A stretch of DNA of 57,209 bases from a virus, in IMG/VR virus record IMGVR_UViG_3300020220_000057, positions 1-57,209 of that record. One strand, written 5' to 3'. The notes under the pieces were generated by a model. The model saw nothing but the letters and a program-made list of their open reading frames with translations. It had not been told where the DNA came from and did no database searches. Both the position numbers and the translations under genes were made by a program. Shown piece by piece: positions 18,401-57,209 of this stretch. Position 1 is the stretch's first letter, and each line of letters starts with the position of its first letter.

Positions 18401-20312
18401 TAATTATAAAGGAATTGATAGATATAATATTGTTAAAATAAATAAAGACACAGCTGTTGAAGTTTCAACTAATAATCCATTTGTAAATAAATACGATGCA
18501 ACGGATTATGGTCCAAATAATTATAATTCTACTAGAATTAGAACAATAGTGAATTCACCTTATGGTATAATAATTGGTCCTGAAAATAGTTTTCCACTTA
18601 TTTCTTACAAATACAAAGGAAATAGATCTACTGATTCTGCTTGCTTGGCTAAAATAAACAAAACAACAGCTATATCTTCTGCCATTTCTAATTCTTCTTT
18701 AGAAAAAGGTATTGGTTTTGACCTGGCCTCTCATAGAGTAACAATGTTTAGCTGGCGTCCAAATGGTGTAGGCACTGAAGTTCGTGCTATAAAAGATTTA
18801 ACAATAGATGGCAATAACATTTTTGCAAGCGGAAACTTTTCAGTATTTTTTAATTTTAAAAATGGATCTGCAAGCAGTATTAGTGTTTTAGATAAAACAA
18901 ATGGCTCTATTACAAATGTTGTTTTAAGTAAAATGATTTTTGATCAACAACCAAGTTGTTGCGTTGTTGATGGTGATTATTTATATCTTGCTGGTAAATT
19001 TCAATCTTATAAAAACAGTATTTTTTCTCATAATATAATAAAAATACATATTCCAACTTCAGAAATTGATTTGTCTTTTTCAACACTCAGAGGATTTTTA
19101 CAACAAAAAGGTAAAAGTCAAATGCAATCAAGTCCAGACAGCAGTGGAACAATAAATAAAATGATAATAAATGGAGACAATCTATATGTATGTGGTAGTT
19201 TTAATTATTATCAAGGAGAAACTAGACAAAATATATTAAAACTTAATAAAATAACTGGAAATGAAGCAGATCCCATGAATACTGGTTTTAGTACTACTAG
19301 TGGCTTTAATGGTTCAGTGAATGATATGGAAATTGACGCGTCTGGAGATTTGTATGCAGTTGGTTCCTTTACCTCCTATAAAGGAACAACAAGACAATAT
19401 GTTGCTAAAATAAATGGTCAAACTGCTGCTTTAGACACGACTTTTGATACAGCAAGTGGATTTAATAGTACATTAAATTGTATAACTTTAGACAGCACTA
19501 GTTTATATGTGGGAGGTTCCTTTGGTCTTTACAAAGGCACAACTAGACAAAATTTAGCTAAAATAAATAAAACAAATGCTGCGTTAGATACGACATTTAA
19601 CACAGCTACTGCGGTTAATAGTCAAACAAATTGTATAACTTTAGATGGAAATAATTTATATATTGGTGGTTATTTTACTAGCTATAAAGGACAAAGTAGA
19701 GGTTATATAGTTAAAATAGATAAAACAACCGCAGCAGAAGTAGATGCATCTGGTACTGGCTTTAGTACAAATAGTGGGTTTAATACTACAGTTATGTCTA
19801 TTTTATCAGATGGACTTGGGTCGTTGTATGTAAATGGTCAATTTAATAGTTATAAAGGAACAACGAGGCCGCATCTTGCAAAAATAAATACTTCAGATGC
19901 GACATTGGATACGGGTTTTAATGCATCTATTCCACACTCGGGTTCTGTTGTATTTCCTGGTAGAATGCTTTTATTATCAAACGATATTATTTGTCCATTT
20001 TTACCAACCTCTCAAGCCTCAAATCGTTATAATGTTGCGAGAGTATTTAAATTTTCATTAGAAAATTATGATATTAGTTTTAATACTAAAATGGGTCTTG
20101 GTCAAACAGGTTTTACTTCAAATCAATATTGGGCAAATAAAATATTAAAAATACCTGAGCAAGTAGCCGGACAAGGTGCTAGATATTACGTATTTGGTTC
20201 GTTTTTGTCATATGAAACTACTTATCCAGCAAATGGTTTTTCTAGTGATGGAAAAACAATTGCTAGAGCTGTTGTTTTTAATGACAGTGGAAAAAATATT
20301 TTTCAACTTTAA
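15438..20312 (+). CDS. Giant DUF5122-type beta-propeller protein, 1624 aa
   Basis: ACGAGGAGAACATAGT precedes the ATG. The protein starts MFTVPSMRGFSSKPGFI and then consists almost wholly of repeats of about 50-65 residues with the core LYVGGSFTSYKGTTRQ.LAKI followed by TTAALDTTFDTASGF. This is the signature of DUF5122 (delta-60) beta-propeller repeats. Each repeat should form propeller blades, so the chain may hold several propellers. No enzyme motif or membrane segment is visible. Its place after two fibre genes and next to a paralogue suggests a surface adhesin or host-binding virion component. Codon use is richer in ATA/TTA than in the fibre genes upstream. Confidence 0.75.
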   Translation: MFTVPSMRGFSSKPGFILQTIPNISFNGTVNDAVESADSIYIGGNFTAASNNVTKAAVVFDKSTATSLYSTKFNSSVITFTVDTSFTYYVGYFTEYNGTTVNKIVRISNTTGVIDTSFNYFPASNSWGASNFDTPQCVAIDGDNLYIGGSFSSFKSNPSNKYLIKMSKSTGVVDNSFLPNLNGSVSKIVVDGTDLYISGNFTTVNGTTRQYLAKIDKATGALNTTFDTSNAGGSEPYSFSVDSTSIYIWGGFTSYKGLTRQNLVKIDKNTAAVDTAFDTSSGFGSIVRAVAIDGNDMYVGGNFTNYKGNTRYYFAKINKDTAAEVDASGTGWSTTNYIFGNTVWDIVVDGTSLYVGGDFTHYKGRNNVGRIIKIDKITGNEIDAAGTNWSAPTLSDSYISQIFIQSSRIFAIGASITIAGGFPVNRLVKVNKSTNLIDTAFNSNLGSGFNGEVFCLCLDSSDLYVGGSFDSYKGNTRQRIVKIDKTTAAEVDANGTGFAITTGFTGNGTVNTFLIDGTSLYVGGDFSGYKGASNNMSSLVRLDKTSGNPIAGFSTHNVVRKFVNELSYGNGQVLTLALDGNNLYVGGRFVTFNNKCRYNILKLDKTTGNEVDANGSGFSKPNAGFDGYINKIVLNGNDLYIGGAFKGQKLNSLCSGTSLISKTTGGINSSITVGYDATMGRSVRCAVVSGDYAYLGGEFISWNGEDAYGIVKIYIPTGERVAAFDTTTGVDILPGSTGNSGSVECIVLDGSNLYIGGTFTSYKGTSARAIAKIDATTGALITAFDTTTGFLNQNSWNPTETNPGIVSTLALSADGLSLYVGGSFGLYKGTTRQNLAKISTTNAALDTTFNTAVGTNNQVLTLALDNTLNVLYAGGWFSTYKGNNRNHIIKINTSTAAEIDNNGSGLSVANIFNGSVNKIKIDASSNVYCAGSFLMFNNTTTRQRLAKFSAGTNSVTLDSTFDTSSGFNNVAEDFFIDGNDLYVCGGFSNYKGIDRYNIVKINKDTAVEVSTNNPFVNKYDATDYGPNNYNSTRIRTIVNSPYGIIIGPENSFPLISYKYKGNRSTDSACLAKINKTTAISSAISNSSLEKGIGFDLASHRVTMFSWRPNGVGTEVRAIKDLTIDGNNIFASGNFSVFFNFKNGSASSISVLDKTNGSITNVVLSKMIFDQQPSCCVVDGDYLYLAGKFQSYKNSIFSHNIIKIHIPTSEIDLSFSTLRGFLQQKGKSQMQSSPDSSGTINKMIINGDNLYVCGSFNYYQGETRQNILKLNKITGNEADPMNTGFSTTSGFNGSVNDMEIDASGDLYAVGSFTSYKGTTRQYVAKINGQTAALDTTFDTASGFNSTLNCITLDSTSLYVGGSFGLYKGTTRQNLAKINKTNAALDTTFNTATAVNSQTNCITLDGNNLYIGGYFTSYKGQSRGYIVKIDKTTAAEVDASGTGFSTNSGFNTTVMSILSDGLGSLYVNGQFNSYKGTTRPHLAKINTSDATLDTGFNASIPHSGSVVFPGRMLLLSNDIICPFLPTSQASNRYNVARVFKFSLENYDISFNTKMGLGQTGFTSNQYWANKILKIPEQVAGQGARYYVFGSFLSYETTYPANGFSSDGKTIARAVVFNDSGKNIFQL

Positions 20313-20372: not shown

Positions 20373-22808
20373 ATGTTTTCTGTTTCCTCATTAAGAGGAT
20401 TGCATAGTAAAAGTAGCACTAATTCAATTATTAGTGTTCCAGGTTTTTACACTGATGGAATAGTGTATTCACAAATAAACTCTGGAGATTATTTATACAT
20501 AGGTGGTGAATTTTCAAAAGTTGGTTCTTTATCTGATCTAAAGGTAAGTAGAGCTGCTTTTATAAACACATCTAATGCGAATCTACATTCGACATTGAAT
20601 TTATCTTTATTCGATGGAGATGTTAATTGTTCAGTTATAAGTGGTAACTTTATATATGTTGGTGGAAAATTTACAGCTTATAATGGAACAAGGTCTTATA
20701 ATTTAGCAAAAATATCATTATTAACTGGTCAAATAGATACAACCTTTAACACTGGTTACGGATTTAACACTGGCTATCAAGAGCCAGCAAAAATCGGAGA
20801 GGTTCTTGCAATAGAAATAGACGGTACAGATCTCTATGTGTGTGGTGATTTTTCTTATTACAATGGAACAAACAGTGCATCAAAACTTGCTAAATTAAAT
20901 GCAAATACTGGAGTTTTTGATTCTACGTTTAATACAGTTAATGCTTTTGCCTATGGCCATCCCTATCACCTTGCTGTTGATTCTAGTGGCTTGTATGTTT
21001 CTGGTTCTTTTACTTCTTACAAGGGGACAACTAGACAATATTTAGTTAAATTAAATAAAACAAATGCTACTTTAGATACTAATTTTGATAATTTAACTGG
21101 ATTTAATAGTAATGTAAGTTCTATTGTAATCGACAGTACTCATTTATATGTGGGTGGAAGTTTCACTTCTTATAAAGGAACAACGAGACAACGTGTAGCC
21201 AAAATAGACAAAACAACAGGGGCGTTGGATACTGGTTTCGATACTGCAAATGGATTTGATTCCTCTGTTAATTCATTATTATTAGATGGAAACAATCTAT
21301 ATGTTGGTGGTAGTTTTACTACTTATAAAGGAAACACTAGACAACGTATTGTTAAAATAGATAAAACAACAGCAGCAGAAGTAGATGCATCTGGTACTGG
21401 CTTTAGTACAACTAGTGGATTTGATTCGGGTGTTACTAGTATTAAGTTGGATGCATCTGGGTTTTTGTATGCAGGTGGTTTTTTTACTTCTTATAAAGGA
21501 AACACTAGACAACTTATTGCAAAAATAGATAAAACAACCGCAATATTAGATGTTTCTTTTGATAGTTCTAACGGTTTTTCTGGAACATCGACAAACTACG
21601 GCGTGAGTGCCGCAAGTGTAAGAACAATATCTATAGCATCTGGAGTTTTGTTTGCTGGAGGTTATAATTGTCTTGATTATCGATCTGTTAACAATGCTTT
21701 TAGCAGACGGGGTTTGGCAAAGATACATATCCCAACTGGAACAGTTGATACTATTTTTAATACCAGTAGTGGAATTTCTTCATATGGTGTGATTTTTTCG
21801 ATGATATTAGACGGCAACAATCTATATGCAGGTGGTGAATTTACTACTTATAAAGGAAACACTAGACAACGAATTGTTAAAATAGATAAAACAACAGCAG
21901 CAGAAGTGGATCCAAATGGTACTGGTTTTAGTACTACTAGTGGATTTCCTAGTGGAACAATTAATTCATTATTATTAGACGGCAATAATCTATATGTTGG
22001 TGGTAATTTTGGTTCTTATAAAGGAAACACTAGACAACGTATTGTTAAAATAGATAAAACAACAGCAGCAGAAGTAGATGCAAATGGTACTGGTTTTAGT
22101 ACTACTAGTGGATTTGATAATACAGTTTATTCAATGGCATTATATGGAAACAATCTATATGTTGGTGGAAGTTTCACTTCCTACAAAGGAAACACTAGAC
22201 AACGAATTGTTAAAATAGATAAAACAACAGCAGCAGAAGTGGATCCAAATGGTACTGGTTTTAGCACAACTAGTGGGTTTAATAATTGGGTAGAGTCAAT
22301 AGTTCCAGATGGTTTAGGAGAATTGTATGTAGGAGGCATGTTTTCCTCTTATAAAGGAACAACGAGATTATGTATAGCTAAAATAAATGCAACAACAGCT
22401 TCTCTTACGACTGCATTTAATGGTTCAGCTTCCTGGTTACCAGGTGGTTTTTATGCAGAAGTTAAATGCATATTATACACAAATGGACAATTATTTATAG
22501 GTGGCTTTTTCAATAATTATAATTCAACTTTTAGGGTTAAAATAGCTAAAATAAATCCAACAACAGGTGATCTTGATACTCTTTTTGTGCCAGATCAGTT
22601 ACTTGAAAGCGGAACAAGATGGTATCCAGGATTGCATGGAAATGCAACAACATATCAAACACCAGGCTATCAATCTACAGATGCTGTATTTTCACTTGTA
22701 GACATAGGCGGGAGTAGGATAGTAGTCTCAGGAAGACATAACTCATATAGAGGATTGATTCAACCTGGAATAAGTATATTAAAAACTACAACAGCAGACC
22801 CTGTCTAA
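20373..22808 (+). CDS. DUF5122-type beta-propeller protein, 811 aa
   Basis: This is a paralogue of the preceding 1624-residue protein. It shares the N-terminal pattern (MFSVSSLRGLHSKS against MFTVPSMRGFSSKP) and the repeat LYVGGSFT.YKGNTRQRIVKI with DKTTAAEVDANGTGFSTTSG. Near-identical DNA repeats at nt 21290-21400, 21830-21940, 22000-22110 and 22150-22270 point to recent amplification. AGTAGGATGG lies upstream of the ATG. The C-terminal 150 residues depart from the repeat. It ends in a convergent overlap with the minus-strand gene at 22805. A host-surface binding role is inferred from position. Confidence 0.75.
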   Translation: MFSVSSLRGLHSKSSTNSIISVPGFYTDGIVYSQINSGDYLYIGGEFSKVGSLSDLKVSRAAFINTSNANLHSTLNLSLFDGDVNCSVISGNFIYVGGKFTAYNGTRSYNLAKISLLTGQIDTTFNTGYGFNTGYQEPAKIGEVLAIEIDGTDLYVCGDFSYYNGTNSASKLAKLNANTGVFDSTFNTVNAFAYGHPYHLAVDSSGLYVSGSFTSYKGTTRQYLVKLNKTNATLDTNFDNLTGFNSNVSSIVIDSTHLYVGGSFTSYKGTTRQRVAKIDKTTGALDTGFDTANGFDSSVNSLLLDGNNLYVGGSFTTYKGNTRQRIVKIDKTTAAEVDASGTGFSTTSGFDSGVTSIKLDASGFLYAGGFFTSYKGNTRQLIAKIDKTTAILDVSFDSSNGFSGTSTNYGVSAASVRTISIASGVLFAGGYNCLDYRSVNNAFSRRGLAKIHIPTGTVDTIFNTSSGISSYGVIFSMILDGNNLYAGGEFTTYKGNTRQRIVKIDKTTAAEVDPNGTGFSTTSGFPSGTINSLLLDGNNLYVGGNFGSYKGNTRQRIVKIDKTTAAEVDANGTGFSTTSGFDNTVYSMALYGNNLYVGGSFTSYKGNTRQRIVKIDKTTAAEVDPNGTGFSTTSGFNNWVESIVPDGLGELYVGGMFSSYKGTTRLCIAKINATTASLTTAFNGSASWLPGGFYAEVKCILYTNGQLFIGGFFNNYNSTFRVKIAKINPTTGDLDTLFVPDQLLESGTRWYPGLHGNATTYQTPGYQSTDAVFSLVDIGGSRIVVSGRHNSYRGLIQPGISILKTTTADPV

Positions 22809-26395: not shown

Positions 26396-27166
26396 CTAAC
26401 CTATCATTTTTAAAATAACTGAAAGATCTTTTTCATACATATGCATCGAATGAGCTATATGAGTATATGAGCCTGTTTTTAAATTTGGATATTTATCTAA
26501 TAATTCTAGAGTCATTTTATTTTGTAAATAAACAAAAAATGGAACATCATAAACTGTTCCTCTTAATACATCATTGCTGCGCATTACCGCGGTCATGTTT
26601 AAATTTTCATTTCTTATACTAAAAGAAACATGCATCGTACATGGAAAATCTTTATTACCAATCCACGCATGATAAGGTTTGTTTATTCTCATTACTGCTT
26701 GTCTTGAATCTTTGTCATTCAATAAGCTCTGTTTAGCCCATTCCCATGGGGTTCTTTTAAACGAAGACATATCACATGCAAGAGTATTTGGATATGATTC
26801 ATACGAGCCGTCGCCTTCGCTGTGATCTTTCATTGTTAAAAAACCATAGTTAGAATTTACAGTACCATCTGGATTTGCTATTTTATTCCAAAACTTACTT
26901 ATCTTAGTGGCCGACTCCACTGATCTAAAACCAGACAGATACCATTCCATTTCTTTTATAGTATAGTCTTTTATTATTGTATTTCTTTCTAAATCATTTG
27001 TAATAATAGATTCTGAAGTAGGTTTTTTTACTTCAAAAATATAATTAGATATTTCTCTAATCAATTGCCCACGTGGAGACGACAGATTTTCATAATTTTC
27101 AACTATATTTTTTAATAAATCTAAATACGCCTCACTAGTTGTCGTATATGTTAATTTGTTATTCAT
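26396..27166 (-). CDS. dCMP hydroxymethylase (T4 gp42-like), 256 aa
   Basis: This belongs to the thymidylate synthase fold family. It is closest in pattern to T4 gp42, which converts dCMP with methylene-THF to 5-hydroxymethyl-dCMP. Matching segments include EMEWYLSG (gp42: ELEWYKSK), the TVNSNYGF stretch (gp42: EINSNYGW) and the MRSNDV phosphate-binding motif at residues 195-200. The catalytic Cys is C176 (FPCTMHVSFSI). The residue corresponding to thymidylate synthase Asn177 is Asp (D207 in TVYDVPF), the substitution that selects dCMP over dUMP. HSMHMYEKD supplies the sugar-binding His/Tyr. A separate ThyX in this genome covers dTMP, consistent with this gene being devoted to cytosine modification. 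Methylase rather than hydroxymethylase activity cannot be excluded. Confidence 0.8.
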   Translation of the reverse strand: MNNKLTYTTTSEAYLDLLKNIVENYENLSSPRGQLIREISNYIFEVKKPTSESIITNDLERNTIIKDYTIKEMEWYLSGFRSVESATKISKFWNKIANPDGTVNSNYGFLTMKDHSEGDGSYESYPNTLACDMSSFKRTPWEWAKQSLLNDKDSRQAVMRINKPYHAWIGNKDFPCTMHVSFSIRNENLNMTAVMRSNDVLRGTVYDVPFFVYLQNKMTLELLDKYPNLKTGSYTHIAHSMHMYEKDLSVILKMIG

Positions 27167-31632: not shown

Positions 31633-32643
31633 TTATTTGCCGTGTGCATAATTTTCTTTTATAGAGCTATTGCTAATTAAATTAAATATTGCTTTTTCTC
31701 TAAATTGTCTTAAATCAACAGCTCCGACATATGTCAGTGCGGATCTTATCCCACCATCGATATCTTTTATAATCTCTACAACAGAGCCCTTATAGGGTGT
31801 TTTAAACAACTCTCCTTCTGCACAGCTCCAATCTTTGCCTTGATCAACATAAGATTCTTTAGAAGCAGATCCTCTGTATATTTTATATGCTTTTCCTTCG
31901 ATGATGGAAATGTTTCCCGGTGTTTCTTTTGTTCCTGCGATCATTCCACCAAGCATCACCATGCGAGCGCCCGCAGCTAAGGCTTTTGCAACATCGCCAG
32001 AGGTTCTTATTCCACCATCTGCTATCATTGGTATATTTGTTTGATTACAACTAATTAATGCTGAAATTTGAGGGACACCGCATCCAGTTTTAATTCTAGT
32101 TGTGCATGCAGAGCCAGGTCCAATTCCAACTTTTATAGCATCTGGTTTGTATCCAAGATGATTACAAAATTTCTCAACACTGTTTTTATTTCCAAAATTT
32201 CCAACAATTAAAAATACGTGTGGAAATTTTAATTTAACATATTTATAAAAATTAACAACCTGCATTTGAGCAGCGTGTGCAACATCTATCGTTACTATTT
32301 CTGCTCCTACGTCTATTAAACTTTCTAATCTTTGTTTTTCTAAATCAGAAATACCAATAGATACCCATGGTGCTTTATTGGTATGTTTTTTAACTTTTAA
32401 AAAGTTAATTACATTTTCTTCAATTGTACAAAAACGATGAAGACAACCCATGGCACCAGTGGATATAAGTGTCTCAGCCATCTCTGGTCCACATACTGTA
32501 TCCATATTTGCTGCGACTATAGGTAATTGTAATTTTGTTTTTTCATCATTTAAACAAGATACTGTATTTACTTCTTTTCTACTTGAAACAGTGGAAAAAG
32601 AAGGCTCGATCAACACGTCATCAAAGGTTATTAATTTATCCAT
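31633..32643 (-). CDS. guaC: GMP reductase / IMP dehydrogenase family (GuaC-like), 336 aa
   Basis: This is a TIM-barrel nucleotide oxidoreductase. The phosphate/catalytic loop reads [11 protein letters not shown] with Cys180. [20 protein letters not shown] and the flap segment [12 protein letters not shown] follow, and the C-terminus [12 protein letters not shown] is close to E. coli GMP reductase (GGLRSACTYVGA). There is no CBS pair, and the length (336) matches GMP reductases rather than IMP dehydrogenases of about 490. It probably deaminates GMP to IMP using NADPH, shifting purine pools. IMPDH activity is the alternative. AGAAAGGCAAA precedes the ATG. Confidence 0.85.
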
Positions 32644-33134: not shown

Positions 33135-34148
33135 TTAAAAATCGTCATCTACGTAGTTAAAACCTAATCTACTATCGCTTTTACGATGTGAAGATTCTTC
33201 TGCTTTTTTTCTTTGTTCTAATAATTCCTCTACTGCTTTTTCTAAAGGCATATCGTATAATTCATGACGAAGAACCGCTTCCTTTGAATATGCAGGAGTC
33301 ATTTTTGTGCCTTTAAAGGCTTCTTTTTCTGAGTCGTTTAATTTTCTTTCTATGAATTTTTCAACAAGCCAAATAATCTCTTCGTCTTTCGGTCTTTCAA
33401 CCTCTCTGACAATATCAAATCTACCTGGTCTGCTTGTTAGAGTCTTATTCAGACTGTCTAAGTAGTTTGTTGTGGCAACTATCATTGTTGGAATCTTAAA
33501 TAAATCAGAGTTGCCATCAAGAAAGTTTAACATAGAAGGATCGACTCTTTCTGCTCTTTGATCAAGTCCAGATCCTCCAATGTCTTCTATTACTAGTACA
33601 ATAAAATCAACCTTTGAAGCATCTGAGGCCATAAACATATCTGTTATTGTCTCAAAACTAACTTCATCTGAGTCGATTCTTAATATACATATTTTTTCAA
33701 GTTTGTTCATTTGTCTACAAAAAAAGTTTATCAAAGAGCTTTTTCCAACACCTGGCTCTGATCCAAAAAGAAAACCACGTTTTGGTGGAATATTTCTCTT
33801 ACGATACGTATTTATATTTTTTCTAAAAACTTCAAAATGTTTCATTAATTCTTTTGAAGAATCAGTTTCGTAATAAGTAAAGTCTATTAAATCCATTTTA
33901 ATTAGACCTTCTTGAGGAGTTATTCTCCATGCTCCAGGTGTTATTTCATACGATTGTTTTTTCTTTTTGCTTGAAATAACATCCATGTCTAACAGATATG
34001 GTTCGCTTATCTGCGAAACTCTTCCACTTTCTTTTACTTCTTCAATTGTTTTATTTACAACTAATTGATAGTTGCCAAGTTCTATTTCAATGCCAGGTTT
34101 TAGACGAGTTATAGATCTAACTTTTGCTATTTTTTTATTTTCACTCAT
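33135..34148 (-). CDS. AAA+ ATPase, 337 aa
   Basis: A 120-residue N-terminal region is followed by a classical AAA domain. It has Walker A GSEPGVGKSS (129-138), Walker B IVLVIEDIGG (183-192), sensor 1 ATTNY (225-229) and the TSRPGRFD box (238-245) seen in FtsH/BCS1/proteasomal ATPases. There is no protease or helicase domain, so it probably remodels a protein substrate. GGGAGAAAAA precedes the ATG. Its target is not evident. Confidence 0.8.
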   Translation of the reverse strand: MSENKKIAKVRSITRLKPGIEIELGNYQLVVNKTIEEVKESGRVSQISEPYLLDMDVISSKKKKQSYEITPGAWRITPQEGLIKMDLIDFTYYETDSSKELMKHFEVFRKNINTYRKRNIPPKRGFLFGSEPGVGKSSLINFFCRQMNKLEKICILRIDSDEVSFETITDMFMASDASKVDFIVLVIEDIGGSGLDQRAERVDPSMLNFLDGNSDLFKIPTMIVATTNYLDSLNKTLTSRPGRFDIVREVERPKDEEIIWLVEKFIERKLNDSEKEAFKGTKMTPAYSKEAVLRHELYDMPLEKAVEELLEQRKKAEESSHRKSDSRLGFNYVDDDF

Positions 34149-35876: not shown

Positions 35877-37277
35877 TCATTTTGCACCTTTAGGTATTTG
35901 AATAGTGTCGCCCAAACGAGAAATTGGATGATCAGACGAGCCGCCACGAGAAATTATCCACAAAACTTGCGGAAAATTTTGACCAGGTTTTAACCATTGC
36001 TCAAACTTTACGTCGGAATAATAACCATCTGTTATTACGATGTTTAAATCTGATTTAGTATTTAACATGTGAGTTAGAGAATCTGACAAACATGTTCCAC
36101 CCATTTTTACTTCTTTTTTAAGAGGCTCTCTATCGCCTATTTTATACTTAGATGAAAAATAATTAACATCAGAAAACAAATTTATGGAACAACGTCGATT
36201 GCCTACTTTAAGAAATTCATCAACTGTGTCTAAAAATTCATTCATTTCTTCTTGCGATATCGAACCAGACGTGTCGATGTACATTGCCAACTTTGGCAAG
36301 TCTCCTTCTTTTGTTCCGGGTGCTTTATTGCCAAATCTACGAGATTTTCTTGCCCATGAATATTTTCTATCAATACCCGTTGCCGATCTCTTAATTGCAG
36401 CTAAAATTAATTGACGATAATTTAATTCAGCTTTTCTTATTTTAATGTCTTCAAGAAGATCTTTGATACTAGATGGGAGATCGTCCCAGCTCATTGATTG
36501 CTTGACCATTGCGCGTTTTACAAGATCTTCTGTTGCATTTAGCACATCAGATTCTTCTGCATTGGCATGCCATTCATGACTGTCAAATTGCCTAGGCGCA
36601 TTCTTTGCATCTCCATCTTGACCATCTTTATTATCTTCATTGTCTTCTTCTTCGTATAGTTCCATTAATTTCTCAAAATAAAACTCCATTGTCTTTCCAT
36701 TTTGCCATGGAGTTTTTTTCTTACTTTTTTCATCTTCATCATAAAAATTCGATGGCAACATAGCGTGACCACAGCATAAGTCATTGGAACATTGAGCTCC
36801 TTGCTTCATCTCTTCTAAAGGAGGACATTGTCTACAACCTTGCGGTAGATTTTTAATCAATGTATTAATCGACATGTCGCCTGCGATATTTAACAAGCGT
36901 CTTTTATGATCACTTACCTTCATAAAAGGAACACGAATCAAATGTTTGTGAGTTATGTGACAGATTTCATGAATTAAAACAGCAACTCGCTGCTCAGGCG
37001 ACAAAGCTTTGCAAAAAAAACGCGGATTTATAAACATCTCATATCGTGCGTTGTCTGGACTAAAACTAACACCCGCTGTTGGAACCATGTATGAATATTG
37101 AATATTCATCAACGAAAGCATAGCACCGTAAAATGTATGATATTTGTTTACTTCATAAAGTGCGGTTGCTAGACATTGTTTTTTTAGCTCTTCTGATGTG
37201 TCATCTTTTGCAACCATAACTAAAGCTTTTTTCTTTGTAACGCTATTGTCAGCGGTTGCAACTGCCTGAGTAGACAT
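35877..37277 (-). CDS. Metallopeptidase-like plus VWA-like domain protein, 466 aa
   Basis: The ATG at 37277 follows GGAGGTATGT. The N-terminal domain contains HEICHITHKH (HExxH at 103-107) like putative DUF2201-type metallopeptidases, then a Cys-rich segment (CRQCPP...CSNDLCCGH, 148-171) and an acidic linker (about 208-228). The C-terminal domain has a MIDAS-type DTSGS (335-339) typical of VWA-like domains, followed by FSDVNYF and a GGTCLSD turn. Such proteins work with MoxR AAA+ ATPases, and one is encoded nearby at 40127-41242. A TCCGATTC element ends 27 bases upstream. Confidence 0.8.
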   Translation of the reverse strand: MSTQAVATADNSVTKKKALVMVAKDDTSEELKKQCLATALYEVNKYHTFYGAMLSLMNIQYSYMVPTAGVSFSPDNARYEMFINPRFFCKALSPEQRVAVLIHEICHITHKHLIRVPFMKVSDHKRRLLNIAGDMSINTLIKNLPQGCRQCPPLEEMKQGAQCSNDLCCGHAMLPSNFYDEDEKSKKKTPWQNGKTMEFYFEKLMELYEEEDNEDNKDGQDGDAKNAPRQFDSHEWHANAEESDVLNATEDLVKRAMVKQSMSWDDLPSSIKDLLEDIKIRKAELNYRQLILAAIKRSATGIDRKYSWARKSRRFGNKAPGTKEGDLPKLAMYIDTSGSISQEEMNEFLDTVDEFLKVGNRRCSINLFSDVNYFSSKYKIGDREPLKKEVKMGGTCLSDSLTHMLNTKSDLNIVITDGYYSDVKFEQWLKPGQNFPQVLWIISRGGSSDHPISRLGDTIQIPKGAK

Positions 37278-37304
37278 ACATACCTCCATGTTTATTATTT
37301 AATA

Positions 37305-37922: not shown

Positions 37923-38165
37923 TTATGTAATTATGCAAGATTTAAAACCTCCTTTAATGACACTGTTTGTGTTTTTGCAAATATTATGTTTTTCTATCTT
38001 AATAGTTTTTAATCTTGTTTTTCTTAATCTCATGTCTATTTTGTCAAAAGTATCAAAATGATTATTGTTTTTCCAATAATAAACTACATTATATTTAATG
38101 TTTTCCTCCTCTCCTCCTTCTTCCTCAATAAGGTCTTCATATACCTCAATCAACTCTTCATTCAT
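37923..38165 (-). CDS. Hypothetical protein, 80 aa
   Basis: The ATG overlaps the end of thyX by 8 bases and has GGAG seven bases upstream, so it is coupled to thyX. It has an acidic N-terminus (EELIEVYEDLIEEEGGEEEN) and a basic C-terminal half. An overlapping plus-strand frame of similar length exists but has no ribosome site and breaks the operon logic. Function is unknown. Confidence 0.5.
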   Translation of the reverse strand: MNEELIEVYEDLIEEEGGEEENIKYNVVYYWKNNNHFDTFDKIDMRLRKTRLKTIKIEKHNICKNTNSVIKGGFKSCIIT

Positions 38166-39039
38166 TAGAAATCTCCATTAAATTATTTTTAATAAGATCA
38201 ATGGTTTGAGGTGCTTCTTCTAATATTTGACGAAACTGTGTCCAGCCTCTAAAGTTTCTAGAAAAATAATCAAGCTCATCTTCAGGTATTGCTATATGCT
38301 CAAACGGCGAGGCGTGAATTGGTTTTGATTCGCCTAGTTGCAAAAATATTCTAAGGTCATTGTTTAAATCAGATGCTCCACCATCTATCTTGTCATAAGA
38401 AACACGCGCACATCTAGCGACTGATTTTACAATCAAGGACGATAGGAATTTTGGATCGCTGATGTCTCCTGCGTTTTTCTCATCTTCTGTCACAAAAGGC
38501 AAATGCATATCATTGTGATCTGTTTTTAAAATTGAGCAACTAGAATCTAATTGCTTTTTCATATTTTTAGCAAGCTCAGCCAATTCAGGTTGTGCGTCTT
38601 CATGATCTCTTAAAACAAAAAAATTGTCAAATTCAGTTGCTGTAACAACCATTTTCATGTGTACAAATGGTTCAAGTAATCTATTACAATGTTGTTTATG
38701 CACCCCAATGTCTGCCAGTGCTCTTGCACAGCTTATCATTTCATCTCTTGCCTTTCTCCAAATAATCTTTGCCTGTGCCTCTTGCTCGGGCAATAAATAC
38801 TCAGATGCCTGCATCCCTTTTTTATTTTTAGAAAATCTGATTGGAAGCGCTGTGTCTTCTATAATTCTATCTACAAAAGTTTTAAGTGGTATTGCTCTAG
38901 AAGACGCAGCATTTCTAGAAAAAACTCTATGTGTCATTATTTCAGCATGGATAAAACGAGGATATATTAATACAAAGGTTGTTATTCTATTTCCAAAATT
39001 ATTTATAGAATCTGCTATTATTTCTGATTTTATAGTCAT
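38158..39039 (-). CDS. thyX: Flavin-dependent thymidylate synthase ThyX, 293 aa
   Basis: ThyX methylates dUMP to dTMP using FAD, NADPH and methylene-THF. The ThyX motif RHRxxSxNxxSxR is present as THRVFSRNAASSR (residues 36-48), with the first Arg replaced by Thr. The helix HCNRLLEPFVHMKMVVTATE followed by NFFVLRDHEDAQPEL supplies the family's Arg and the AQ-E helix. AGGTAAAAA precedes the ATG. With dCMP deaminase and RNR in the window it completes a route from cytidine nucleotides to dTTP. Confidence 0.9.
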   Translation of the reverse strand: MTIKSEIIADSINNFGNRITTFVLIYPRFIHAEIMTHRVFSRNAASSRAIPLKTFVDRIIEDTALPIRFSKNKKGMQASEYLLPEQEAQAKIIWRKARDEMISCARALADIGVHKQHCNRLLEPFVHMKMVVTATEFDNFFVLRDHEDAQPELAELAKNMKKQLDSSCSILKTDHNDMHLPFVTEDEKNAGDISDPKFLSSLIVKSVARCARVSYDKIDGGASDLNNDLRIFLQLGESKPIHASPFEHIAIPEDELDYFSRNFRGWTQFRQILEEAPQTIDLIKNNLMEISNE

Positions 39040-41347: not shown

Positions 41348-41397
41348 TTAATTTAATTTGCTGCAAATCAACGTAAGCAAACACGGGGATCCTTGTG

Positions 41398-42210
41398 ATG
41401 AAAAAAGTTATTAGTCTATTTAGTACGTTTATTAGTTTAGCTTTTCCGCTTGTTTCAAGTGCTTCCTCGCCACAAGAGGTTCTTGTTCTCGATAAAGATA
41501 ATCATATTCTTTTAAATGGAGAAATAAATTCAAAAATGTCAAGTGAGTTTATTTCTCAAATGTTGAAAACAAAATCTGACAATTTAGTTGTGTACATAAA
41601 TTCTCCCGGTGGCTCTGTTATCTCTGGTATGAAAATTGTTCAAACTGCAAAAGATATTAAAGCAAATAATAGTAATTTAAAAATAACATGCTATGTTGAC
41701 TTTGCGGCATCAATGGCTTTTGTAATAACACAAACAATATGCGATGAGAGAATAGTTGGTGAAACCTCTGTTCTAATGCAGCATCAAGCAACTTTTGGAG
41801 TACAAGGAAGAACCGGTGAAATAGCTGCAAGAACTGGTATGGTTCTTTCTATTTTAGATGTTATGGACTCTGCTCAGGCAAAAAGATTGAAAATCACAAA
41901 AGATGAACTTCGTAAAAAATCAAAAGACGAATGGTGGCTAGTTGGTAAAAATGCAGTAAAAAACAACGCAGCAGATAAAAAAGGCTCTGTTGTTTGCACT
42001 GCGGAATTGGTTGATTTAATTAAAAAAGAAACTCTAATAATATTGGGAGCAAAAATAGAATTATCATGGTCTAGTTGTCCGTTGGTTGAATATCCAGTTA
42101 AAATTGAAGTAAATAGAAAAGATATTTCACCAGAAGAAAAAACTAAAATAGAAAACAAAATCTATGAATCTATAGAAAATAGAAAAAAGATATTTACAAC
42201 AAGTCCTTAA
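41398..42210 (+). CDS. Secreted ClpP/SppA-like serine protease, 270 aa
   Basis: A classical signal peptide (MKKVISLFSTFISLAFPLVS then SASS) starts at the ATG at 41398 after GGGGAT; an adjoining GTG is the alternative. The crotonase/ClpP fold is shown by VVYINSPGGSVISGM, the nucleophile Ser in DFAASMAFVI, the His in LMQHQA, and a late Asp in VKNNAADK. The C-terminal 90 residues lie outside the ClpP core. A ClpP-like protease with a Sec signal would act in the periplasm without Clp ATPases, as SppA-type enzymes do. It is one of two such paralogues within 1.5 kb and is on the plus strand against the local trend. Confidence 0.8.
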   Translation: MKKVISLFSTFISLAFPLVSSASSPQEVLVLDKDNHILLNGEINSKMSSEFISQMLKTKSDNLVVYINSPGGSVISGMKIVQTAKDIKANNSNLKITCYVDFAASMAFVITQTICDERIVGETSVLMQHQATFGVQGRTGEIAARTGMVLSILDVMDSAQAKRLKITKDELRKKSKDEWWLVGKNAVKNNAADKKGSVVCTAELVDLIKKETLIILGAKIELSWSSCPLVEYPVKIEVNRKDISPEEKTKIENKIYESIENRKKIFTTSP

Positions 42211-42800: not shown

Positions 42801-43565
42801 ATGTCTGATAAAAATAAACTTGATGAACTTGTATCTACTGGAATAGATTGGGATAAGCGTAGAATCTATTTTGGAAGTATAGATTCGGGAGAGGATGGTG
42901 GTGAATTTTCTTGGCATACTGTAGAAAGAGCTATCAGAGCTATTCATAAAATGAGTGAAATAAATATAAATCCGATTGAAATTCACATGAATTCCGAAGG
43001 CGGCAATCCATATGACATGCTTAGACTCGTTGATGAGATTGAAGCAGCGCCTGTTCAAATAAAATTCATAGGCGGAGGTATGATTGCTAGTTGTGCAACA
43101 TGGGTTATGGCCGTATGTGATCATAGGTATCTCCATAAAAACACAACTGTATTGGTTCATGATGGGAATGACGGAATATCTGGAACACATACAGATGGTC
43201 AAATTCAAGCACAGCATTTGAAAAAAATGCAGGATAGACTTTATGATATTTATGAATCAAATTCAAGAATGCCAAAGTCTTTTTGGCAAGATTTATGCCA
43301 AAGAGATTTATATTTAAAGGCAGAAGAAGCTGTTTTATTAGGTTTGGCTGATGAGATTATAGACTCAAGAAAACGTGGTAATGTAAGAAAATCTAGAACA
43401 AAAAGACTAAACGGACAACCAAACGCAAAAGAAATGCAAGATCTCATAAAAGACCTTTATAAAAGAATAGAAAGAAGTCGAGTACCAAAGCTTGCAATGA
43501 ATGAAAGTAAAGAAGAATTTGATGATTCTTTAACTAATCCTTTTGAGGCTCAAGACAACCAATAG
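42801..43565 (+). CDS. ClpP-like protease, cytosolic, 254 aa
   Basis: This has the ClpP/crotonase fold without a signal peptide. HMNSEGGNPYDMLRLVDEI is the oxyanion region. The nucleophile Ser is in GGGMIASCATWVMA, the His in TTVLVHDG, and the Asp in EEAVLLGLADEII, so the triad looks complete. A basic segment (KRGNVRKSRTKRLNGQPN) and an acidic tail extend past the ClpP core. The ATG has only AGAGG close by. It might be a head-maturation-type protease or a Clp-like peptidase recruited by a phage AAA+ protein. It lies alone on the plus strand among minus-strand genes. Confidence 0.8.
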   Translation: MSDKNKLDELVSTGIDWDKRRIYFGSIDSGEDGGEFSWHTVERAIRAIHKMSEININPIEIHMNSEGGNPYDMLRLVDEIEAAPVQIKFIGGGMIASCATWVMAVCDHRYLHKNTTVLVHDGNDGISGTHTDGQIQAQHLKKMQDRLYDIYESNSRMPKSFWQDLCQRDLYLKAEEAVLLGLADEIIDSRKRGNVRKSRTKRLNGQPNAKEMQDLIKDLYKRIERSRVPKLAMNESKEEFDDSLTNPFEAQDNQ

Positions 43566-50376: not shown

Positions 50377-50596
50377 CGATATGTCCTCCGTTTTTGATTT
50401 GTTTTATGTTTTCATTCATAAAATTTGCTTTTGTATAATATGCAATTTGCTTTACTTCACTTTCGCTATAAAAAGAAGGTTGAATCATATGTTTGTTTTT
50501 AGACGATTTTTTTGCTTTAGATGCAACATTATCTATATAGACAATTGCGATCCAATAAAGTACCATAAATAAAAATATATACAACACTATATCCAT
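50366..50596 (-). CDS. Small membrane protein, 76 aa
   Basis: An N-terminal transmembrane segment (IVLYIFLFMVLYWIAIVYID, residues about 3-22) is followed by a basic stretch (KAKKSSKNK) and a polar tail. It is probably N-out or N-in single-span. It sits with other membrane or exported small proteins, which may form a lysis or envelope-modification group. Confidence 0.55.
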   Translation of the reverse strand: MDIVLYIFLFMVLYWIAIVYIDNVASKAKKSSKNKHMIQPSFYSESEVKQIAYYTKANFMNENIKQIKNGGHIDGK

Positions 50597-50841
50597 TATT
50601 TTTTCCTACATTGAATATGTCCAAGATACAGGCCTTTATTATCTAATAAAGAAGTAATTGTTTTGTTTTTTTGTGAACAGTTAACTATTATCTTTCCAGA
50701 TTCACAAGCCAAAATAACAATTGGTTTAACTGGTCTAACTTCCACGGTGGGAGAGATACATCTTTCGAGATGAACAGAAACATCTGCAGAATAAGGACTA
50801 CTCATTGCTATTGTAAAAGTATGAATTAATGTTGTTATCAT
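50596..50841 (-). CDS. Hypothetical protein, 81 aa
   Basis: AGGTTTCAAAAC lies somewhat far upstream, so translation may rely on the ATGA overlap with the preceding gene. The N-terminus (MITTLIHTFTIAMSSPYSAD) is mildly hydrophobic and could be a weak signal peptide. The rest has four Cys. No family is recognised. Confidence 0.45.
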   Translation of the reverse strand: MITTLIHTFTIAMSSPYSADVSVHLERCISPTVEVRPVKPIVILACESGKIIVNCSQKNKTITSLLDNKGLYLGHIQCRKK

Positions 50842-51374: not shown

Positions 51375-51877
51375 TACATTTCTCCCCAAAGAGATATTAC
51401 ATTATTTTTAGAAACACATTGTCCATCTTTCATTTTTAATACAGCTGGACCGATTATCGTAATTGGAGCAAGCATAAATAAAACATCATTTACATGAGAG
51501 TGTACAGCTATCCAAATTGGAGTAGAGTTTTCTACTTTATAAGTAAACAAGTTAATTGGATTCTTTACATCAATAAAGACACATTTATTATCCAACATCC
51601 TGAGATCTAAGATGTTGCTTACCAATGAATCATACATAGGCGCACATGATTTGCACATCAAGTACATTGAATTATTAGTAACATCATGACACAATGTTGC
51701 TATTTCTAGCACGCATTCAAACGCGTCCATATAAAGCATCTCTGCTTCTACAGAGGCAATTTGTTCAGTGTTTTTACACACACTTAACAACTCGCCATAG
51801 GTTATTGTATCGTTTACAGATATCACCGTGTGCATTTCGTATTCGTTACTGGATTTATCAATTGCATTTTCGAGCAT
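51374..51877 (-). CDS. Hypothetical protein, 167 aa
   Basis: AGGGAAACAACTAC precedes the ATG, which lies 55 bases inside the end of the upstream secreted-protein gene. The sequence is Cys/Met/Val-rich (CVLEIATLCHDVTNNSMYLM, CKSCAPMYDSLVSN) and beta-like at the C-terminus. No family is recognised. Confidence 0.5.
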   Translation of the reverse strand: MLENAIDKSSNEYEMHTVISVNDTITYGELLSVCKNTEQIASVEAEMLYMDAFECVLEIATLCHDVTNNSMYLMCKSCAPMYDSLVSNILDLRMLDNKCVFIDVKNPINLFTYKVENSTPIWIAVHSHVNDVLFMLAPITIIGPAVLKMKDGQCVSKNNVISLWGEM

Positions 51878-52062
51878 GTAGTTGTTTCCCTAAGTAGTGT
51901 TAATCTTGCATAATTAATATAAGAACAATCTAAAGTAATTGTATTGCACTCATACACAGAGTTTACGCTTTCATCTATTAAAATTAGATGATTTCCACAT
52001 ACTTGTTTTATATAGCATAAGCTTAGAAACGAGATGGTTAAATAAATATTTATGTTTTTCAT
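51823..52062 (-). CDS. Exported Cys-rich small protein, 79 aa
   Basis: CATGGAGAAACA precedes the ATG. The N-terminal hydrophobic stretch (INIYLTISFLSLCYIKQVCG) looks like a signal peptide. The mature part has several Cys that could form disulfides in the periplasm. The last 55 bases also encode the start of the next gene. Function is unknown. Confidence 0.5.
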   Translation of the reverse strand: MKNINIYLTISFLSLCYIKQVCGNHLILIDESVNSVYECNTITLDCSYINYARLTLLRETTTCSKMQLINPVTNTKCTR

Positions 52063-52085: not shown

Positions 52086-52709
52086 TTATTTTTTCTGACT
52101 TAAATCTTTAAAAGTATCTTCATGAGTTAGAATTAAATCTAAATCATGTTTTTCATTTGGTAATCTTTTAATATCAAAAAGTTTTTTAACTAAAATTTTC
52201 CAATAACTACCGTAATCTTCTTCTTCCATCATGTATGGATTCATAAGATCTAAAGAATTTACTGTAGTATGATCTTGACCAAGTAGACAATGACCAAGTT
52301 CATGAAACACCAAACCTTTCATAGAAAGAGAATCCACATCCGCAAAGCCCTTTAAAATCTGAACTGTTCTAGGAACAGACAGAGTTATTCCATAAAAACA
52401 TCTTCCAACTACATTTGGGCTATCATTGAAGGCATCGACATATTCAACTTTATTTAAAGCAAGAAGCCTTTTTTCACATTGAATAGTAAACTCACCGCCA
52501 ACTAAAGAACACATTGAAACGAATTCAACTACGTGTGAATATAATTCTTTATCAACTTTTACATTAGTAAATAAATGATTAATCATTCTTTGTTGAGTGT
52601 TTTCTTTATCATATTTTGTTGAAGGCGGAGGTGATACTGTTTTTTCATCATCCAATGATCCACATGCTGTTAAAAACAAACTTAGAATTATAATTGTTTT
52701 TATTTTCAC
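52086..52709 (-). CDS. Lipoprotein metzincin-type metalloprotease, 207 aa
   Basis: The start is GTG at 52709 after GGAG. MKIKTIIILSLFLTACGS is a lipoprotein signal with lipobox LTAC, so the mature protein begins at Cys16 and is membrane-anchored. The zinc site reads HELGHCLLGQDH (136-147), the HExxHxxGxxH motif of metzincins, followed by DLMNPYM with Met156 as a likely Met-turn. The region upstream holds four Cys. Expected role is an extracytoplasmic endopeptidase acting on host or phage surface proteins. Phage-encoded lipoprotein metzincins are not something I recognise from well-known phages. Confidence 0.8.
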   Translation of the reverse strand: MKIKTIIILSLFLTACGSLDDEKTVSPPPSTKYDKENTQQRMINHLFTNVKVDKELYSHVVEFVSMCSLVGGEFTIQCEKRLLALNKVEYVDAFNDSPNVVGRCFYGITLSVPRTVQILKGFADVDSLSMKGLVFHELGHCLLGQDHTTVNSLDLMNPYMMEEEDYGSYWKILVKKLFDIKRLPNEKHDLDLILTHEDTFKDLSQKK

Positions 52710-52712
52710 AAA

Positions 52713-53099
52713 TTAAATCTCCAATAGCTTTTTTTCTAAAACATTATTAATTGCCTGATCAACGTGACATGGGGCAAAGGTTTTGATTTTATTCTTTTTG
52801 TCTTTATCTCTCATTGTTATAGAAACAGCATATATGGTGTTTTTCCATTCATCAGTGTCTTTCCACCAATTTCTGTAAAAAACATAATTTATTTGCACCG
52901 AATTGCCATTGCCAGTCAGTATTAGTTTTTTAGTAAATGTTCTTTGTTCATACTTTTTTTCTTTCAAATCTGATTTAAAATAAGATACTTTTGCTAATAA
53001 TTCGTTTAACAAATCTGACTCTTTGACTTTTAAAAGTAATGAAATATATTTTACTTCTAAACTGTTTATTTTTATATGACATCTGTGATGTAGTTTCAT
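52713..53099 (-). CDS. Hypothetical protein, 128 aa
   Basis: GAGGTTGTAAA precedes the ATG. The sequence is basic (MKLHHRCHIKINSLEVKYIS at its start) with a beta-like middle (LILTGNGNSVQINYVFYRNW) and a C-terminal helix. A one-mismatch TTCGATTC element ends 22 bases upstream. No family is recognised. Confidence 0.5.
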   Translation of the reverse strand: MKLHHRCHIKINSLEVKYISLLLKVKESDLLNELLAKVSYFKSDLKEKKYEQRTFTKKLILTGNGNSVQINYVFYRNWWKDTDEWKNTIYAVSITMRDKDKKNKIKTFAPCHVDQAINNVLEKKLLEI

Positions 53100-55007: not shown

Positions 55008-57209
55008 ATGGCATATTTATCTAATAAATTAAAAAGAAGAATAGTTATTGCCGTTACCAGTGAGAAATATGGTAAAGAATTGATAGATGCCATAGAGGGC
55101 GTGTCAAGTAGCAGTGTCGGTCCACAAGGTCCGCAGGGCGAACAAGGTCCAATTGGGCCGCAAGGGATTCAGGGAATTCAAGGTCTCACTGGCCTACAGG
55201 GTGTCCAGGGCCCCAAGGGAGATCAGGGCGTTCAAGGACCACAAGGTTTACAAGGAGAGACTGGTGCAGCATTAACTGTTATGGGATCATATAACACTTT
55301 ACAAGATTTTTTAAGTGGGGCTGGTAGTTTAGCTGGGGACCCTGGTGAAGCTTGGATAATATCATCAGATGGTTCTTTATATGTTTGGAATGTTTATACT
55401 TATTCGTGGACAAATGCAGGATCGATTCAAGGACCTCAAGGCCCACAGGGTCTGCAGGGGATTCAGGGACCAAGTGGAGCACAAGGCGCACAAGGTGAAG
55501 TTGGCCCACAAGGTCTTCAAGGTGAACAAGGCGTCCAAGGTCTCAAGGGCGATAAAGGCGATCAAGGCGACGTTGGTTCAACTGGTCCTCAAGGAACTCA
55601 AGGTCCTCAAGGTCCTCAAGGGCCTCAGGGAATTCAAGGTATTCAAGGTATTCAAGGTGCCACTGGTCTTCAAGGTGCCAAGGGTGACAAGGGCGACCAA
55701 GGAGAAGTAGGTCCTCAAGGTCCTCAAGGTCCTCAAGGTATTCAAGGCGCTACTGGTCTTCAAGGTGCCAAAGGCGATAAGGGTGATCAAGGTAACGTTG
55801 GCTCAGCAGGAGACAGGTACCACACCACTTCGTCGTCGTCGTTTACTATTCAAAACAGTGGTCAGTTTACAGTAACTACAGATGATTTAGATTTAGACTA
55901 TTCTATAGCTCAAACTGTGATTTTGGCCTATGATGCCAATAATCACCAACATGCTTCTGTCGTTAGTTACAACCCGTCGACTGGCGAGTTGGCACTAGAC
56001 AGAACAGATTCTAGTGGCGCTGGTACTTATAGTAGTTGGAGTATTAATTTAAGTGGAGCTGTCGGTATCAAGGGCGATAAGGGCGACCAAGGAGAAGTAG
56101 GTCCTCAAGGTCCTCAAGGTCCCCAAGGCCCTCAAGGTGTTCAAGGTGCCACTGGTCTTCAAGGCGCCAAGGGCGATAAGGGCGACCAAGGAGAAGTAGG
56201 TCCTCAAGGTCCTCAAGGCCCTCAAGGTACCCAGGGCGCCAAGGGCGACCAGGGCGACACAGGTCCTCAAGGTGCTCAAGGCGACACAGGCCCTCAAGGC
56301 CCTCAAGGCCCTCAAGGTGTTCAAGGTGCCACTGGTCTTCAAGGCACCAAGGGTGATAAGGGCGATCAGGGCGACACAGGTCCTCAGGGCGATCAGGGTG
56401 ACACAGGTCCTCAAGGCCCTCAAGGTGTCCAGGGTGCTCAAGGTGTCCAGGGTGCTCAAGGTGTCCAGGGTGCCAAGGGCGACCAGGGTGATAAGGGAGA
56501 TCAGGGAGACACAGGTCCTCAAGGTCCTCAAGGCCCTCAAGGCCCTCAAGGTGTCCAGGGTGCTCAAGGTGCCACTGGTCTTCAAGGTACCAAGGGTGAT
56601 AAGGGCGATCAAGGAGAAGTAGGCCCTCAAGGCCCTCAGGGTCCTCAAGGTACTAAGGGAGATCAGGGCGACACAGGTCCTCAAGGTGCTCAAGGCGACA
56701 CAGGCCCTCAAGGTACCCAGGGTGCCCAGGGCGATAAGGGCGACCAAGGAGAAGTAGGTCCTCAAGGTCCTCAAGGTCCTCAAGGTCCTCAAGGCCTTCA
56801 AGGCCCTCAAGGTACCCAAGGTGCCCAGGGTGCCAAGGGCGACCAAGGAGAAGTAGGTCCTCAAGGTCCTCAAGGTCCTCAAGGTACTAAGGGAGATCAG
56901 GGCGACACAGGTCCTCAAGGTGCTCAAGGCGACACAGGCCCTCAAGGCCCTCAAGGTACCCAGGGTGCCCAGGGCGATAAGGGCGACCAAGGAGAAGTAG
57001 GTCCTCAAGGTCCTCAAGGTCCTCAAGGTCCTCAAGGTCCTCAAGGTCCTCAAGGTCCTCAAGGTCCTCAAGGCCCTCAAGGTGCCCAGGGTGCCAAGGG
57101 CGACCAAGGAGAAGTAGGTCCTCAAGGTCCTCAAGGTACCCAGGGTGCCACTGGTGATGCTGGCCCGCAAGGTCCGCAAGGTGTTACTGGTGCGCGAGCA
57201 TACACTGTT
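55008..57209 (+). CDS. Collagen-like tail fibre (3' end outside window), at least 734 aa
   Basis: TTGAGGCAAAT precedes the ATG and the frame stays open to the last base. Residues 1-36 form a head ([20 protein letters not shown] at its start). A collagen run of about 45 residues follows, then a roughly 55-residue insert ([14 protein letters not shown]...[16 protein letters not shown]). Another collagen run leads to an insert of about 90 residues (GDRYHTT...[13 protein letters not shown], nt 55797-56076) shared with the fibre at 10827. About 1.1 kb of further Gly-X-Y repeats follow, mainly GPQGPQG and GDKGDQGE, where DNA repeats of GGTCCTCAA are very long. The last residues GARAYTV probably enter the receptor-binding tip. 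Trimeric rod structure is inferred. Confidence 0.82.

Follow-up and report, generated by a model that had tools for sequence, protein, structure and literature searches.

A phage gene for a putative lipid-anchored, metzincin-like zinc peptidase with a lengthened zinc motif

A single IMG/VR virus record spanning 57,209 bases (the whole stretch of DNA analysed, in the following "the window") encodes a predicted lipoprotein with a zinc-peptidase site. Directly supported are its export signal, the conservation of the site, its membership of a family, its recurrence among viral contigs and selection on it. Our preferred reading, held with about even confidence, is a zinc endopeptidase that is anchored by a lipid, belongs to a small zincin family not yet characterised and cleaves envelope proteins, most likely in aid of release. 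Zincin proteases as such are a known kind; what appears to be new here, judged from sequences and structure models, is a metzincin-like zincin that is lipid-anchored, has a lengthened zinc motif and recurs in phages. The family is almost unannotated, its altered zinc motif having been overlooked by annotation pipelines. Should the phage-encoded members prove to act on the envelope, they would constitute a class of exported phage protease alongside the usual lysis proteins.

Gene, export signal and closest homologue

The predicted gene (52086..52709) encodes 207 amino acids and starts with GTG. An initial annotation had proposed this open reading frame without giving its strand; the frame is real and lies on the minus strand, as indicated by direct reading, by its relatives and by a pN far below pS in the comparison described below. 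A ribosome-binding-like GGAG (52719..52722, minus strand) is located 9 nt 5' of the GTG. The gene directly upstream (52713..53099, minus strand), separated by a 3-nt gap, encodes a protein of 128 amino acids that has a counterpart in L002, another viral contig, and gave no match in family-profile searches. Judged by their spacing, the two genes would form one transcription unit. Downstream, after 23 nt, follows the gene of a Cys-rich protein of 79 amino acids with a signal-peptide-like N-terminus (51823..52062, minus strand). This protein and a second small Cys-rich one (50596..50841, minus strand) are, like the lipoprotein, conserved in L002, and neither gave a significant family match. In the 79-residue protein the Cys positions are largely kept, and it is a possible partner or substrate of the lipoprotein.

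The N-terminus (MKIKTIIILSLFLTAC followed by GS) has a K-rich start, then a hydrophobic core and the lipobox LTAC with Cys16. We assign a type II signal peptide to residues 1-15 (MKIKTIIILSLFLTA; 52665..52709, minus strand), with the hydrophobicity maximum at residues 6-17, and the lipobox to 52662..52673 (minus strand), with Cys16 as the predicted lipidated residue and Gly at position +2. The lipobox noted initially (FLTACGS) is thus present. Lipobox calls, here and in the relatives, were made by sequence pattern; a lipobox was found in 111 of the 119 relatives tallied, and in L002 it is spelled LNGC.

The L002 homologue is 61% identical and lies within a syntenic cluster; it was the only match in whole-protein queries of viral contigs. 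Its zinc site is identical to that of the window protein, and it also retains a lipobox and the second Cys, C104 in GRC. These features recur in more than 100 cellular and ~19 further viral relatives. Comparison of the two genes gave a pN of 0.25 and a pS of 0.71, which indicates purifying selection.

Zinc site and cysteines

The zinc site HELGHCLLGQDH (residues 136-147; 52269..52304, minus strand) reads HExxHxxxGxxH and falls on the active-site helix (residues 113-128) of the mature-protein model. His136, His140 and His147 are the predicted zinc ligands and Glu137 the predicted catalytic residue. HELGH at residues 136-140 and the numbering of Glu137 agree with the initial annotation. The motif HExxHxxGxxH given there does not hold: HELGHCLLGQDH has 12 letters, and its Gly follows the second His after three intervening residues, which places the third His at +11 instead of the canonical +10. 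In a six-frame scan of the window the canonical motif did not occur at all, and HExxHxxxGxxH occurred once. None of 200 residue shuffles produced the latter, whereas bare HExxH came up 2.8 times on average; a chance origin of the 12-residue motif in the window is not expected.

A Met downstream of HExxH had also been noted. It is Met156 (52242..52244, minus strand) in the segment SLDLMNPY, a candidate Met-turn that aligns with the Met of the family segment S[IL]M. The aligned Met is invariant among 41 aligned members; in the window model this segment reaches a pLDDT of only ~54-60.

Upstream of the zinc site, GRC (residues 102-104; 52398..52406, minus strand) corresponds to the family GxC and lies on the edge strand (residues 85-91) of the model; its Cys is invariant across 40 aligned members. 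Because one conserved Cys is thus found on the edge strand and another directly after HExxH, a disulfide beside the zinc site suggests itself, and Cys104 and Cys141 probably form such a bond, tying the edge strand to the zinc-site helix. A disulfide in this place would fit an exported protein. Cys67 (52509..52511, minus strand) and Cys78 (52476..52478, minus strand), both conserved in the L002 alignment, are candidate partners of a further disulfide.

Fold and clan

As modelled (pLDDT 80.6, pTM 0.76), the mature window protein shows the zincin order of elements with HExxH on the active-site helix; only three sheet strands are assigned, and confidence is low between His147 and Met156. The succession of sheet, backing helix, active-site helix and C-terminal helix fits that of the metzincin domain, here and in the cellular member described next. 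Its best matches in the fold library are mostly zincins, from several clans. A compact cellular member of the family was modelled with higher confidence (pLDDT 91.9, pTM 0.87) and is likewise a zincin. Its near full-length matches include snapalysin (1kuh, 4hx3) and EcxA (4l6t), with TM-scores of ~0.45-0.50, a probability of ~0.9 and E-values of ~0.03-0.1. These metzincins are the only near full-length solved matches of the cellular-member model, and they lie below significance; neither model had a fold-library match at E<=0.001. Snapalysin and other metzincins have a canonically spaced zinc motif and lack a lipid anchor. In a profile search of solved chains, adamalysin/atrolysin ranked first (E 0.04), and in this alignment the extra motif residue appears as a one-position gap directly after HELGH.

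None of the metzincin sequence profiles passes its threshold (Pfam M10 reaches 12.4 bits vs a cut-off of 24), the fragilysin model scores far under its cut-off against L002, and no family profile reaches its cut-off with the window protein. The metzincin-defining motif HExxHxxG/NxxH/D comprises 11 residues, from which HELGHCLLGQDH departs by its length. Igalysin-family IgAse, a solved metzincin, offers a precedent: its motif, HExxHxxxGxx(D), is likewise lengthened by one residue ahead of the Gly, which half a helical turn accommodates, and it has a Met-turn CIM (PMC12237041). Since a solved metzincin has this very insertion, metzincin-like chemistry is plausible for the window protein. The two differ in that the third ligand of IgAse is Asp, where His is predicted here, and in that IgAse is a large multidomain enzyme with a catalytic domain of 313 residues (PMC12237041); a sequence match between IgAse and the window protein was not found.

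An alternative, which we regard as rather unlikely though it fares best among those considered, is that the protein is a zincin outside the metzincins (SprT-like, minigluzincin or PF18894-type) that resembles them just around HExxH; it would still be an envelope protease. Selecase/minigluzincin and SPRTN are indeed among the top fold matches, but these cover a partial domain of 72-100 columns, whereas those to snapalysin and EcxA span the whole domain. PF18894 (PhageMetallopep) scores 11.5 bits with the window protein (cut-off 23.7). It matches 65 of 76 aligned family members at E<=0.01, and some cellular relatives, L022 among them, exceed the cut-off; the match spans only the region around HExxH. 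A weak match to a SprT-like protein of Vibrio phage EniLVp02 points the same way; this protein, SprT-like and only weakly matched, was set aside. It has the GHGxxF segment after HExxH that is typical of SprT and absent from the window protein. Against this alternative, the conserved Met of S[IL]M and the position of the third His (+11) agree with a metzincin carrying one insertion and not with the SprT pattern. We therefore call the window protein metzincin-like, its membership of the clan being plausible, not established. What stands of the initial metzincin assignment, and of the structure comparison proposed along with it, is the zincin fold with metzincins as the best near full-length matches; the longer motif, the lack of a profile match and the absence of any fold match at E<=0.001 speak against it.

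A family of small cellular lipoproteins

When 84,980 species genomes were scanned with the 48 residues around the zinc site, 80 loci were obtained, nearly all in Bacteroidota and Bdellovibrionota, whose genes mostly encode proteins of 150-220 amino acids with a lipobox in nearly all. Among 119 distinct ORFs tallied, Cys follows HExxH in 116 and His stands at offset 11 in 117, the metzincin offset being 10; the exceptions include at least two ORFs, in L051 and L135, that are apparently unrelated. At motif offset 9, Arg is usual (110/119) and was not counted as family-defining; the window protein and L002 have Gln instead. The pattern of the genome scan contained HELGHC, so that the 80 loci are biased towards it. 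A profile built from the two phage proteins only, and hence not seeded with HELGHC, matched 30 of 291 Bdellovibrionota genomes and recovered members with the same features in the proteins read out, which answers this concern. The family profile matched 76 of 281 Bdellovibrionota genomes and 3 of 200 Gemmatimonadota genomes, one of them strongly. A plasmid search gave one weak Bdellovibrio relative, used as support only.

With its lipobox, the upstream GxC and HELGHC with the third His at +11, the window protein is a member of a family of small lipoproteins, GxC...HELGHCxLxRxH...S[IL]M, which is coherent and nearly devoid of annotation. These features and its size are shared with L022, L040, L012 and BFD64874.1 (from a Bdellovibrio sp. 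HM001 plasmid), and the Met segment and a C-terminal helix with an ELF-like end are also common to the window protein and the cellular HELGHC lipoproteins. Unlike these, the phage protein is extended at its N-terminus by a segment containing an additional Cys pair, carries Gln where they usually have Arg, and has a loop to the Met of 9 instead of usually 14 residues; identity between the two is only 16-28%.

Viral relatives

A motif-centred query of viral contigs led to 21 loci, the contig of L002 among them. Beyond L002 we count ~19 further viral loci, of which ~18 are non-redundant (L171 and L173 carry an identical protein). Nearly all of these members have the lipobox and the His at +11, and their neighbourhoods vary. 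The third His is lost in L162, and L158 and L168 are without the S[IL]M segment. Since none of the other window proteins tested matched the fetched flanks of these further relatives, the gene appears to travel as a single accessory gene, and on this sequence evidence it is a recurrent phage accessory gene.

In a tree including the viral sequences, phage and cellular members are interspersed with weak support. The best tree has eight label changes, of which well-supported branches force only one; the notion of repeated capture therefore rests mostly on the differing neighbourhoods. The pair formed by the window protein and L002 groups with L157 and L166 (SH-aLRT 88). The protease tree of cellular members weakly favours a Bdellovibrionota host (SH-aLRT 81), but the window groups with other phages once the viral rows are included. 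Somewhat more tentatively than our main reading, we propose a lipoprotein branch of the metzincins, marked by the 12-residue motif and a Cys beside HExxH tied to the edge strand; widespread among Bdellovibrionota and Bacteroidota, it would repeatedly have been captured by phages as an envelope effector.

In two of the related phages the metallo-lipoprotein gene adjoins a gene for an apparently exported protein (L169, 4205-4984, minus strand; L172, 2888-3520, minus strand). One of the two neighbour proteins matches a phage protease family, and the other resembles S49/ClpP-type proteases by eye.

Proposed function

The idea of a membrane-anchored extracytoplasmic metalloprotease, put forward in the initial annotation, gains support from the conserved lipobox and Cys pair, the invariant catalytic residues, the zincin fold and purifying selection. 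Given lipobox and conserved Cys pair, a protease anchored to the envelope is the simplest account. For zinc binding, proteolysis, disulfides, substrate and stage of infection we infer the following course. After export, the protein would be cleaved by signal peptidase II and anchored on the host envelope via Cys16. Zinc would be bound by His136, His140 and His147, with Glu137 activating the water; the extra motif residue, which adjoins Cys141, could be absorbed as in IgAse, and Cys141 would probably form a disulfide with Cys104 on the edge strand. During infection, one or more envelope proteins of the host (or phage) may then be cleaved. The likeliest benefit would be an envelope weakened for release, and we rank a block to superinfection second.

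A phage-derived metzincin of Listeria, Mtz, which is paired with the lipoprotein Tim, raises phage lysis (PMC8235301). It is, as we propose for the window protein, phage-derived, extracytoplasmic and metzincin-type (PMC8235301). Mtz differs in being secreted, in its canonical motif, in that the lipoprotein there is the partner Tim, and in its Gram-positive host. Searches of the open literature turned up no publication on the motif string, on lipoprotein metalloproteases of lysis cassettes or on phage lipoproteins of this type. Endolysin-type genes lie within ~4 genes of the lipoprotein gene in L156, L157 (one of the nearest relatives of the window) and L174. Such neighbours in 3 of ~18 non-redundant viral loci, picked by eye, compare with ~2 expected under an estimate of ~1 endolysin per 70 genes, which is not significant. 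In the window no endolysin is found beside the lipoprotein gene, the SLT transglycosylase gene being 12 kb off.

Instead of aiding release, the protease could act early in superinfection exclusion or receptor shaving, clipping the receptor of the phage itself or other surface proteins and so blocking adsorption of further virions. We regard this reading as rather unlikely. The location as a lipoprotein is compatible with it, and so is the genomic context: the gene sits on the minus strand in a cluster with NrdAB, dCMP deaminase and numerous small genes, a setting typical of early or middle takeover genes, and its neighbours include further small proteins of exported or membrane type. However, the settings of the viral relatives are diverse, without consistent placement in early clusters. 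Improbable, in our estimate, is that the gene is a moron, a copied host lipoprotein gene that serves the fitness of infected or lysogenic cells and has no role in the lytic cycle. The family is common on Bdellovibrionota and Bacteroidota chromosomes and its phage members are dispersed through the cellular part of the tree, but no integrase was seen among the window proteins examined, and the broad set of nucleotide-metabolism genes is usual in lytic phages, neither point being decisive. Less probable still is a binding or decoy lipoprotein of zincin fold that has lost protease activity or has a non-protein target, as might be read from the Arg to Gln exchange in the motif and from the losses in L162, L158 and L168, since the window protein and L002 keep all predicted ligands, Glu137 and the Met under purifying selection.

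Other features of the window

Genes of the window include those for a tail fibre, a head maturation protease, ribonucleotide reductase, thymidylate synthase, a ligase and a transglycosylase. The nearest match of NrdA is in Myxococcus phage Mx1. A tail-like protein of 1624 amino acids has matches in 61 of 291 Bdellovibrionota and 70 of 287 Bacteroidota genomes; a host assignment from this protein was rejected, as it does not discriminate between the two phyla. Should the hosts prove to be of these groups, the lipoprotein family would offer a way into the study of phages that infect predatory bacteria or Bacteroidota.

A second metallopeptidase-like protein (35877..37289, minus strand) combines a putative DUF2201_N metallopeptidase domain with a VWA-like domain. 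An AAA ATPase gene is located nearby (33135..34148); together the two may form a phage-encoded pair of MoxR/VWA-like type. Two ClpP-like genes lie close together (41395..42210 and 42801..43565, both plus strand), one matching head maturation protease families and the other Pfam CLP_protease. An IMP dehydrogenase/GMP reductase gene was found at 31633..32643 (minus strand, E 1.6e-86), and two genes (26396..27166 and 38158..39039) match thymidylate synthase. Large repeat proteins are encoded at 15438..20312 and 20373..22808 (plus strand; phrog_5490), the second with DUF5122 repeats; the first is related to proteins of the Leptospira phage LE1 and of many Bdellovibrionota and Bacteroidota genomes. 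Finally, a collagen-like protein with Gly-x-y repeats (55008..57209, plus strand) runs off the contig end, and its L002 homologue starts similarly.
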